A DNA stretch of 64,000 bases, from positions 2,232,001 to 2,296,000 of the forward strand of contig NZ_CP063191.1 in the NCBI RefSeq assembly GCF_028609845.1, read 5' to 3'. The stretch comes from Corynebacterium heidelbergense. GTDB taxonomy: Bacteria; Actinomycetota; Actinomycetes; Mycobacteriales; Mycobacteriaceae. Position 1 is the stretch's first letter. The number at the start of each line of letters is the position of its first letter. The notes under the pieces are model-generated. The model saw only the letters and a program-made list of their open reading frames with translations, searched no databases and was not told the DNA's origin. Positions 26,924 through 37,970 of the stretch are shown here, piece by piece. The translations under genes were made by a program, and so were the position numbers.

Positions 26924-27682
26924 ATGATCGACGCCGTGGGTAAACCCCAAACCATCCTGCTCCTCGGCGGGGCCTCGGACATGGGCCTAGCAGTCGTAGA
27001 GGAGTTCCTGTCCCGAGGCCCGGCGCGCGTCATCCTCGCCGCCCGGGATAGCGAGGACCTCACCAGCGCAACCGAGCGGGTTAAGGCCGCCGGGGCTTCC
27101 GAAGTCACACCAGTAAAGTTCGACGCGGTTGACTTCGCCTCCCACCCTGCGGTCTTTGACGAGATCTGGGCCCAGGGGGACGTGGACCTGGCCATCGTGG
27201 CCTTCGGCATCCTTGGGGATAATGAGCAGCAGTGGCAGGACCAGCGCCAGGCCGTCCTCGCAGCTCAGGTGAACTACACGGGCCCGGTGAGCGTGGGTGT
27301 GCTGCTAGCGGAGAAGATGAGGCGGCAGGGCCACGGGCAGATTGTGGTGTTCTCCTCCGTGGCCGGGGAGATGGTTCGCCGCTCCAACTTTGTCTACGGT
27401 TCCGCGAAGGCGGGTGTGGACGGCTTCTACCGGATGCTGGGGGAGGCTCTGCGCGGCACTGGCGTGAAGGTTCTCACGGTCCGCCCGGGTCAGGCCCGCA
27501 CAAACATGACGAAGCACCTCGACGATGCACCCCTCACGGTGGATAAAGAGGACGTCGCCCGGGCTATTGGCAAGGCAGTGGATAACCGCAAGACCCTGAT
27601 CTGGGTACATCCCCTGTTCCAGCCGATCATGCTTATCCTCAAGCACCTGCCTATGTTCGTCATCCGCAAGCTGCCCCTGTAA
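26924..27682 (+). CDS. dprE2: Decaprenylphosphoryl-2-keto-ribose reductase
   Basis: A 252-residue short-chain dehydrogenase that reduces the keto intermediate made by DprE1. It shows LLGGASDMG for NAD(P)H binding, VVFSSVAGE and the catalytic YGSAK (Tyr and Lys), and ends in a hydrophobic helix (PMLILKHLPMFVIRKLPL). A TAGGAG site precedes the ATG. A hairpin follows 33 bp after the stop, suggesting the dprE1-dprE2 transcript ends here. Confidence 0.95.
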   Translation: MIDAVGKPQTILLLGGASDMGLAVVEEFLSRGPARVILAARDSEDLTSATERVKAAGASEVTPVKFDAVDFASHPAVFDEIWAQGDVDLAIVAFGILGDNEQQWQDQRQAVLAAQVNYTGPVSVGVLLAEKMRRQGHGQIVVFSSVAGEMVRRSNFVYGSAKAGVDGFYRMLGEALRGTGVKVLTVRPGQARTNMTKHLDDAPLTVDKEDVARAIGKAVDNRKTLIWVHPLFQPIMLILKHLPMFVIRKLPL

Positions 27683-35225: not shown

Positions 35226-36755
35226 CTACATAGGCCCGGGCGCCACCGGGCCCGCGCGGTACTCACTGAACTTGGAGAACGCTAGCTGGTGGGCGACCAC
35301 GATCGTGCCGATGGGGCCGCCGCGGTGCTTGGCCAGAATGATGTCCGCCTCGCCGGCGCGCTCGTGATCGAGGTTCTGGCTATCCGGGCGGTTGAGCAAC
35401 ATGACCATGTCCGCATCCTGTTCCAAGGAGCCGGACTCACGCAGGTCGGAGACACGCGGCAGGGCATCGTCTCCACGGGACTCCACCCCACGGTTGAGCT
35501 GGGAGATGGCCACCACGGGCACGTCCACCTCCTTGGCCAGAAGTTTGAGCTGGCGGGAAAACTCGGAGACCTCCTGTTGCCGCGATTCGACGCGCTTCCC
35601 GGAGGTCATGAGCTGCAAGTAGTCCACGACGATGAGGGAGAGATCATGCTGCTGCTTGAGCCTGCGGGCCTTGGCCCGGATCTCCATCATCGTCAGATTG
35701 GGGGAATCGTCGATGTAGATCGGCGCCGATTCGATCTCCCCCACCCGGAGGGTAAGCCGCTCCCAGTCGGCAGTCTCCAGCTTTCCGCCGCGCATCGCGG
35801 AGAGGCGGACATCTGATTCCGCCGCGAGGATGCGCATCATGATCTCCGACTTGCTCATCTCCAGGCTGAACAACACGCTGGCCTTGTTCTGCCGGATGGA
35901 GGCATGGCGCATGAAGTCCAAAGCCAGGGTGGACTTCCCCACACCCGGGCGAGCGGCCACGATGATCATCTGGCCGCCGTGCAGGCCATTGGTCATGTCG
36001 TCCAAATCCTTGAAACCGGTTTCGATGCCCCGGGCCCCGGCGGTACCCGATTCCAACTCGTCCAGCTCGTCCATCGTGGGATCGATGAGGCTGGCGAAGA
36101 CCTCGTAGTCCTCCGTGGAGGCGTCGTTAGTTATCGCGAACATCTGCTGCTGAGCATCGTCGACAACGCTTTCCACCTCCGCGCCCTCGATCCCCGAATA
36201 GCCCAGTTGGACAATGCGGGTACCCGCCATGACCAGCTTGCGCAGGGTGGACTTTTCCTTCACGAGGTTCGCGTAGTAGCCCACGTTGGCGGAGGTGGGT
36301 GTGCGCGACATGATGTTGTGCAGATACGGGGCGCCCCCGATGGCCTCCAGGCGGCCATCGCGATCCAACCGCCCGGCCACGATGACCGGATCGATATCCT
36401 TGCCCTCCCCGTACAGGCGGGTGATCGTGTCGAAGACTGTCGCGTGGGCCGGGCGGTAGAAGTCCTCCGCCATGAGCACCTGCACCACTTCGGCGACGGC
36501 ATCCTTACTCATGAGCATGCCCCCGAGCACGCCCTGCTCCGCCTCTATGTTCTGCGGCATCTCGCGCCCGAGGTCCCGGTAATCCGACCCATGTACCTGG
36601 CCCCCATCCCCGCTGGCGTGCCGGCCATAGGTGCCCCTCCCCCGCCCGGGTGCACCCGCACCGGCACCCCGGCGCGCGCCTGCGTCCACCGGATCAAAGG
36701 GTTCTTCCGGCGGGGGTACGTCGTCAAAGGAGATGGAAGGTTCCTCGGGGCTCAT
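35226..36755 (-). CDS. dnaB: Replicative DNA helicase DnaB
   Basis: Hexameric 5'-3' helicase of the replication fork, 509 aa with no intein. A disordered ~70-residue N-terminus precedes the N-terminal helical domain (QNIEAEQGVLGGMLMSKDAV). The RecA-like domain has Walker A ARPGVGKST and VDYLQLMTS for Walker B, and later QLNRGVESR. The ATG at 36755 has TAAGAT 8 nt upstream. It is the last gene of the rpsF-ssb-rplI-dnaB order but is separated from rplI by 762 bp containing a DnaA-box cluster. Confidence 0.96.
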   Translation of the reverse strand: MSPEEPSISFDDVPPPEEPFDPVDAGARRGAGAGAPGRGRGTYGRHASGDGGQVHGSDYRDLGREMPQNIEAEQGVLGGMLMSKDAVAEVVQVLMAEDFYRPAHATVFDTITRLYGEGKDIDPVIVAGRLDRDGRLEAIGGAPYLHNIMSRTPTSANVGYYANLVKEKSTLRKLVMAGTRIVQLGYSGIEGAEVESVVDDAQQQMFAITNDASTEDYEVFASLIDPTMDELDELESGTAGARGIETGFKDLDDMTNGLHGGQMIIVAARPGVGKSTLALDFMRHASIRQNKASVLFSLEMSKSEIMMRILAAESDVRLSAMRGGKLETADWERLTLRVGEIESAPIYIDDSPNLTMMEIRAKARRLKQQHDLSLIVVDYLQLMTSGKRVESRQQEVSEFSRQLKLLAKEVDVPVVAISQLNRGVESRGDDALPRVSDLRESGSLEQDADMVMLLNRPDSQNLDHERAGEADIILAKHRGGPIGTIVVAHQLAFSKFSEYRAGPVAPGPM

Positions 36756-36763
36756 GGCCCCTC

Positions 36764-36769
36764 ATCTTA
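36764..36769 (-). promoter_or_regulatory. -10 hexamer TAAGAT for dnaB
   Basis: TAAGAT lies 8 nt before the dnaB ATG on the minus strand, suggesting dnaB has its own leaderless promoter between the DnaA-box cluster and the gene. Confidence 0.45.
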
Positions 36770-36876
36770 TAGTTCCGCCGGGACAGAGGAAGATCCGCTC
36801 TGGTGCGCTCTGCGGGGCCCCTCCCCTGCTCCGGTGGGCTTTCCCTACCCGGGCCCACCGGCGCTGGTTGGAGCGG

Positions 36877-37176
36877 TTATCCACAGGCACTTCCCTACCT
36901 TCTTGTGGATAACTTGTGGACAGTGTGTGCAGAAATCCTCTTTCCCCAGGTCACCCTGTGGAAAACAACCGCCGTCCCATGCCCCTGACCAGCGACGTTA
37001 GACATTTGCCCAGCTCAGCAGGCCTTCTTGCCGAGCCTGCGGAAAAACCGTTCCCGTGGATAACTTTCAACCCAGTGTGCACATTTACGCGGAAGTTCCG
37101 CCCACTACCCCCCGTATTTACCTCCGAGTAACTCCGGATTTGGCCCGAAAACCCGGTCACCAGCAAGTTTTCCACA
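36877..37176. other. Cluster of DnaA-box sequences between dnaB and rplI
   Basis: Two perfect DnaA boxes: TTATCCACA (36877-36885, plus) and TGTGGATAA (36904-36912, minus). Three one-mismatch boxes: TGTGGAAAA (36957-36965), CGTGGATAA (37055-37063) and TTTTCCACA (37168-37176). A weaker TGTGGACAG lies at 36915-36923. Six within 300 bp is far above chance. The remaining stretch to 37517 holds a hairpin (37261-37287, CGGAAGC/GCTTCCG stem) and no convincing gene. It could regulate dnaB, titrate DnaA, or mark an origin-like site. Confidence 0.75.
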
Positions 37177-37517
37177 ACCCTCACCGCTGCCCCGAAGACG
37201 AGCCGCCAAAGCCGGCGCTCGAAAGCCGCCGCCCCCGAACGAAGAGAAGCGACCCCCGCCCGGAAGCCGCCGTTGGCGGTGCTTCCGAGAAGGGGCCGCT
37301 CCTCGTAGGCACCGACTCTCGTCGGCGCCGCGCTGTTGTCTATGTGTTGCTGCGTGGAGCACACGAAGGGTATCGAGCAAAGCCGTCGGAGTCCACGGGT
37401 AGTTCCCGTCTTGGATAGCGGTTGTCTAGGCCGCCGTCCGGGGAACCCCCGTCAAAACTGCGCCGATTCCTTGCCCACGGATCCCAGAACCCGTGCTCTC
37501 GTGGTTCGGTGAGCCTT

Positions 37518-37970
37518 CTACTCGGCCACTACCTCGATGCCAAGCTTCGCATCCACTTCCGGGTGCAGGGTGACCTCCAGGACGTAGCGTCCAGTGCTCT
37601 TGATGTGGTTCTTCGGCAGCTTGATGCTGTTGCGCTCGAGCTGACGGCCATTCGTGGCCTTTACCGCACTGAGCACGTCCCGTTCGGTTACGGAACCGAA
37701 CAACCGGCCACCCTCCGCGCTGCGGACGGGGATCTTCACGTTGTCCAGGGCCTCGAGCTCGGCCTTGACTTCCTTGGCGTGATCCAGGTCGCGGATGGTC
37801 CGCGCTTCCTGGGCCCGCTTGATGGTCTCGATGTTCTTCTCGGCACCGCGCGTGGCGGCGATGGCGAACCCGCGGGGCAGCAGGTAGTTACGCCCGTAGC
37901 CAGCCTTGACTTCCACGATGTCTCCTGCGACACCGAGGTTATCAACGCTGGTGGTGAGGATCAGCTTCAT
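37518..37970 (-). CDS. rplI: 50S ribosomal protein L9
   Basis: A 150-residue protein with the L9 start MKLILTTSVDNLGVAGDIVEVKAGYGRNYLLPRGFA shortened here to its recognisable core GRNYLLPRGFA, the connecting helix and a C-terminal domain ending VTLHPEVDAKLGIEVVAE. It binds 23S rRNA near the L1 stalk and limits frameshifting. It is preceded by ssb and followed by the long gene-free stretch before dnaB. Confidence 0.96.
   Translation of the reverse strand: MKLILTTSVDNLGVAGDIVEVKAGYGRNYLLPRGFAIAATRGAEKNIETIKRAQEARTIRDLDHAKEVKAELEALDNVKIPVRSAEGGRLFGSVTERDVLSAVKATNGRQLERNSIKLPKNHIKSTGRYVLEVTLHPEVDAKLGIEVVAE

Follow-up and report, generated by a model that had tools for sequence, protein, structure and literature searches.

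An array of DnaA boxes lies upstream of dnaB, the gene for the replicative helicase, in the Corynebacterium chromosome analyzed here (G000), and we consider it likely that this array is a conserved DnaA-responsive control region of dnaB. The window, which is the whole stretch of 64,000 nucleotides under study, corresponds to C1:2232001-2296000 of a 2,313,070-bp contig that begins with dnaA. Clusters of this type probably tie the supply of helicase to the start of replication. The array belongs to a known kind of DnaA site; what is new is the Corynebacterium case, its wide conservation and the natural tests offered by gene order, and within the library searched no description was found of the Corynebacterium cluster or of its conservation throughout the class. 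To our knowledge, the control of initiation is less well understood in Actinobacteria than in E. coli, and a conserved DnaA site before dnaB would connect the initiator with the supply of helicase in a way that lends itself to direct testing.

The array occupies the gap of 762 bp between rplI and dnaB (window positions 36756-37517). Both genes are on the minus strand: dnaB, the presumed target, at 35226-36755 (TIGR00665, E 1.7e-151, above the cut-off) and rplI, the upstream neighbour, which encodes ribosomal protein L9, at 37518-37970 (TIGR00158); together with ssb and rpsF they were identified by NCBIfam models. The initial annotation described two perfect inverted boxes 18 bp apart and three boxes with one mismatch, and all of them were recovered: the perfect boxes (TTATCCACA) at 36877..36885 on the plus strand and 36904..36912 on the minus strand, and the one-mismatch boxes at 36957..36965 (TTTTCCACA, minus strand), 37055..37063 (TTATCCACG, minus strand) and, distal and toward rplI, 37168..37176 (TTTTCCACA, plus strand). 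The perfect boxes are convergent, with 18 bp between them and 27 bp from start to start, and the one at 36877, the nearest to dnaB, points toward its partner. A sixth, weaker box had also been reported, which is perhaps the one at 36915..36923 (CTGTCCACA, minus strand, two mismatches), 11 bp from the 36904 box; a putative weak site, again with two mismatches, lies another 11 bp beyond, at 36926..36934 (TTCTGCACA, minus strand), and a further two-mismatch site is at 37038. In total, the gap contains two perfect, three one-mismatch and three two-mismatch boxes, and the array extends from about 120 to about 420 bp upstream of the dnaB start. On the minus strand, which is the direction of dnaB, the boxes at 36926, 36915 and 36904 follow one another at 11-bp steps, and the last of them then faces the perfect box at 36877.

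A possible -10 element of the TANNNT type (TATAAGAT, minus strand) was recognized by eye at 36764..36771, 8-16 nt before the dnaB start, and such an element, also read by eye, stands directly before the dnaB start in several relatives; a sigma-70 promoter scan of the region gave no match. The distance between the last box and the putative -10 element, judged by eye, varies (about 50 nt in G015 and about 105 nt in G000). A terminator-like hairpin is located between rplI and the boxes (37248..37271, minus strand), so that dnaB would have its own promoter; the hairpin signal is weak, with three hairpins found on both strands of the region against 0.9 expected. A search of the gap for structured RNA returned just two Rfam matches, both far below the gathering scores, and no similar DNA was found in plasmids. 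The genome also encodes a second DnaB-like helicase, 52% identical to the main one and possibly part of a mobile element (C1:520911-522194). The paralogues of dnaB do not carry the cluster: one weak box precedes the second copy of G000, and none precedes the paralogue of G028.

The window contains 17 boxes with no more than one mismatch, whereas 4.6 would be expected, and none of 100 shuffles reached this number. In the whole genome there are 17 perfect boxes, 71 copies of TTDTCCACA and 52 of TTATCCACB, and at three places only on this chromosome do at least three of these 123 strong boxes fall within 300 bp: in the dnaA-dnaN stretch, upstream of dnaA and in the rplI-dnaB gap. When 123 sites were placed 5000 times uniformly, which ignores the fact that intergenic DNA is AT-richer, 78 placements had at least three sites in 300 bp and none had five. 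The genome-wide count proposed in the initial annotation therefore identifies no similar cluster outside the origin in G000.

As had been anticipated from synteny, dnaA lies beyond the right edge of the window: the contig opens with dnaA (1-1695), followed in this order by dnaN, the gene for a RecF/SMC-type protein and gyrB (Pfam). On a closed circle, which the layout of the contig suggests, dnaA and dnaB are 44.3 kb apart, and the cluster is thus not beside dnaA-dnaN, as oriC would be. The suggestion that the array might be an accessory origin, or a relic of one, found no support. The number of boxes would suit such a role, as would the local GC content, which is 48-62% in 60-bp windows over 36860-37160, with its lowest value of 48% at the cluster, against about 65% around it. 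However, dnaA, where the origin is expected, has two box clusters, one on each side; no switch in the GC skew, itself weak throughout, coincides with the array; and the presence of the array goes with dnaB, so we regard an origin here as very improbable. We think it just as improbable that the array is a DARS-like site reactivating ADP-DnaA: it has at least three boxes in mixed orientation and the DARS core is reported to consist of three DnaA boxes (PMC4585315), but the link to dnaB would be left unexplained.

The cluster is conserved in Corynebacterium. In fact, dnaB was found in 71 of 71 genomes, 70 of which were read (G046, with 203 bases at a contig end, was left out). Strong boxes, defined as TTDTCCACA or TTATCCACN, were counted within 1 kb of dnaB codon 64: at least three are present in 55 of the 70 genomes, and at least two perfect boxes occur within the same range in 50 of 70. 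Over the rplI-dnaB interval, at least three strong boxes are found in 67 of 70 genomes, that is, the 55 and 12 more, composed of G003 and G019, whose clusters were counted separately from both 1-kb tallies, and ten genomes with the cluster 1.7-2.3 kb from dnaB. Among the remaining three, two perfect boxes are present in G048 and likewise in G056, and G058, where rplI and dnaB are 18.6 kb apart, has no cluster beside either gene. Conservation upstream of dnaB in related genomes, which the initial annotation had named as a check, is thus observed. The number of boxes reaches nine in this genus, extending some 400 bp upstream, and in 68 Corynebacterium upstream regions (a set for 8-mers and motifs that leaves out G003 and G019) each of the six 8-mers with the widest distribution overlaps the box.

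The geometry of the cluster recurs across Corynebacterium and is not fixed. Among 57 genomes with at least two strong boxes near dnaB, the box nearest to dnaB is on the strand opposite to the gene in 54, as is the 36877 box; convergent pairs are spaced at 14-16 bp in 26 and at 67-69 bp in 35, and 31 have a tandem pair at 10-12 bp.

Genomes in which rplI and dnaB are apart give the strongest indication that dnaB is the gene to which the boxes belong: in 19 of these, 54 boxes lie in the 800 bp before dnaB codon 64 and none in the 800 bp after rplI. These genomes were picked by eye, with rplI and dnaB separated by at least about 2.8 kb or on different contigs and the dnaB side already read; 20 were picked and G183 was left out (15 bases). 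G071, with rplI 3.6 kb from dnaB, would have qualified and is not in the set; it has no box near dnaB. Moreover, in 16 Corynebacterium genomes ORFs of at least 150 residues stand between rplI and the cluster and the cluster still adjoins dnaB; three such ORFs, in three of the 16 genomes, were scanned and carry Pfam domains. When gene order changes, then, the boxes stay with dnaB, the exceptions being G011, G045 and G058.

The ten genomes without a strong box near dnaB had initially been read as evidence that the cluster is independent of this gene. That interpretation has been largely withdrawn, because in eight of the ten the gene between the cluster and dnaB is a co-directional GH15 or trehalase-like gene (Pfam) and because, across the class, it is dnaB that the boxes accompany. 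In G063 and G064 the dnaB start overlaps the stop codon of the GH15 gene, which indicates that the cluster heads an operon including dnaB; in G008, G032, G043, G068 and G026 about 40-180 bp separate the GH15 gene from the nearest possible start of dnaB, and in G007 no possible dnaB start was found near it. In eight of these ten genomes the distance from rplI to the start of the cluster is 107-301 bp, while in G008 and G063 other ORFs also lie between rplI and the cluster.

The two other separated genomes have opposite-strand genes between the cluster and dnaB, TatD-like and ThiF-like in G011 and alpha-amylase-like in G045. Both clusters are intact and flanked by convergent genes, and that of G045 is a tight array with a convergent pair at its end. 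Intact clusters that opposite-strand genes cut off from dnaB count against the control of this gene as the explanation. In a dnaB tree of 58 rows G011 and G045 belong to separate lineages, and G051 is a near neighbour of G011, whose rearrangement may therefore be recent. The GH15-dnaB operon and the opposite-strand inserts are natural contrasts by which a promoter role of the cluster could be told from titration.

The G011 and G045 clusters also bear on another explanation, in which the array is an origin-proximal DnaA reservoir, similar to datA or to the DnaA-box clusters (DBCs) of B. subtilis, that titrates or inactivates DnaA: it would act after its own early duplication and delay re-initiation, and its position before dnaB would be secondary. 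Besides the clusters kept between convergent genes, the large number of boxes agrees with such a function, and so does early copying: in 39 Corynebacterium genomes dnaB is 33-183 kb from dnaA (median 83 kb; nine assemblies are multi-contig, and distances across a contig end assume a circular contig), so dnaB and its cluster would be copied early. DnaA-box clusters whose presence restrains initiation are described in reviews for S. coelicolor and B. subtilis (PMC5742627, PMC5295017), and these share with the array the presence of origin-proximal boxes outside oriC. The Corynebacterium cluster, however, stays with dnaB when rplI and dnaB move apart, the G011 case may be of recent origin, and G058 has no cluster at rplI or dnaB. 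E. coli datA, which stimulates the hydrolysis of DnaA-ATP, has an IHF-binding site between its boxes, and none matching the E. coli consensus with at most one mismatch is present in the gap, a difference that may not apply to Actinobacteria, which may not use one. In the number of its boxes outside oriC, about five according to PMC4585315, datA resembles the array. Altogether, we hold it unlikely that the array is primarily a reservoir.

Weaker versions of the cluster are present upstream of dnaB across much of the class. Two sets were considered, one of 68 named non-Corynebacterium loci and one of the 69 class genomes, out of 115, with a dnaB match (G000 excluded; one of the 69 offers 556 bases upstream only). 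Upstream of dnaB, 54 of the 68 named loci and 61 of the 69 class genomes have one or more boxes with a single mismatch at most, whereas 14 and 8 have none; two or more are present in 39 of 68 and 49 of 69. With 400 permuted motifs, the mean number of loci with at least two matches was 0.2 in the set of 68 and 0.5 in the set of 69, and the largest numbers were 7 and 16; the permuted motif that ranked highest for both Corynebacterium and the class, ATTATCCAC, is the box itself shifted in register by one base, and the permuted motif TCCACAATT likewise overlaps it. Of all 8-mers, the two with the widest distribution among the 68 named loci do not derive from the box. Tandem pairs in the 69 class genomes recur at 12 and 11 bp and convergent pairs at 35, 15 and 14 bp; all eight members of family f17 have a perfect box that is faced, 35 bp away, by TTCTCCACA or TTGTCCACA. 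The lower GC content of the gap relative to the window average might have pointed to a chance cluster in AT-richer intergenic DNA; this explanation was rejected as almost certainly wrong, given the conservation in genus and class and the permuted-motif controls.

A control function for the array is consistent with what is reported for mycobacteria. DnaA of M. tuberculosis in vitro enriched five regions, including Rv0057 upstream of dnaB, DnaA of M. smegmatis bound the homologues of those five regions in ChIP-seq, and dnaB was under-expressed in an M. tuberculosis DnaA mutant with less binding upstream of dnaB (Hicks et al. 2020, PMC7738170). Here too, several boxes are found upstream of dnaB. 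Unlike Corynebacterium, where 50 of 70 genomes have at least two perfect boxes, the Mycobacterium and Mycolicibacterium loci, which are those of relatives and not the M. tuberculosis sequence itself, carry boxes such as TTGTCCACA, TTCTCCACA and TAATCCACA and no perfect one. In Caulobacter, a member of another phylum, dnaB is likewise preceded by DnaA boxes, which are predicted, and a review assigns it to the DnaA regulon with DnaA-dependent expression (PMC8203912). Thus, among the roles that the initial annotation had listed, the coupling of dnaB to DnaA is the best supported: the boxes accompany dnaB when gene order changes, and DnaA binding is reported for the mycobacterial counterpart, together with less dnaB mRNA in the weaker-binding mutant. 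The S. coelicolor and B. subtilis clusters, on the other hand, are those reported to restrain initiation.

According to the mechanism that we propose for the control of dnaB, DnaA would occupy the box array, some of whose boxes are in tandem at 11-bp steps, with the convergent pair nearest to dnaB, and bound DnaA would most likely stimulate a dnaB promoter near the start codon; the level of the initiator and the supply of helicase would thereby rise together. For the G000 species we infer the binding of DnaA to the boxes, the activating sign and the position of the promoter. The many boxes would also hold some DnaA near the origin, and such a reservoir effect is likely to arise as a by-product; titration of DnaA is a possible second function, since G011 and G045 keep the cluster and the origin is near. 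Some other observations count against control of dnaB as well: up to nine boxes exceed the need of a simple operator, the distance from box to -10 element is variable, and there are loci without boxes, among them G071.

A broader reading, on which we are doubtful, combines both functions in a class-wide and ancient multi-box complex that would be at the same time a switch for dnaB and a main non-origin reservoir of DnaA near oriC. The recurrent geometry would then be given by the 11-bp tandem boxes and the convergent pair next to the gene, and the dual role would let the cluster survive where a rearrangement severed dnaB.

Other groups of boxes were observed outside the gap. Within the window, 27538-27641 contains three one-mismatch boxes in 104 bp (TTATCCACC, TTATCCACT and TTATCCTCA). 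Elsewhere in G000, a perfect box and a TTGTCCACA box, 18 bp from start to start, lie at C1:97036-97062 (L157:1037-1063), about 160 bp before an ORF similar to methyladenine glycosylases, which might be another DnaA target. Among the matches listed for other genomes (those of G033, G045, G015 and G054), G045 has five perfect boxes in 218 bp about 28 kb from dnaA (C1:27936-28153), a candidate DnaA site, and divergent perfect pairs at 14-16 bp at 312153, 1179245, 1626950 and 2071677, which are candidates too. Four perfect boxes at exact 19-bp steps in G015 (C1:895654-895719) are probably a tandem repeat. Finally, both G033 (C1:2583297-2583357) and G015 (C1:403411-403451) have a tandem perfect pair at a distance of some 11-17 kb from dnaA, toward dnaB, and its occurrence in two species possibly indicates a second conserved site.
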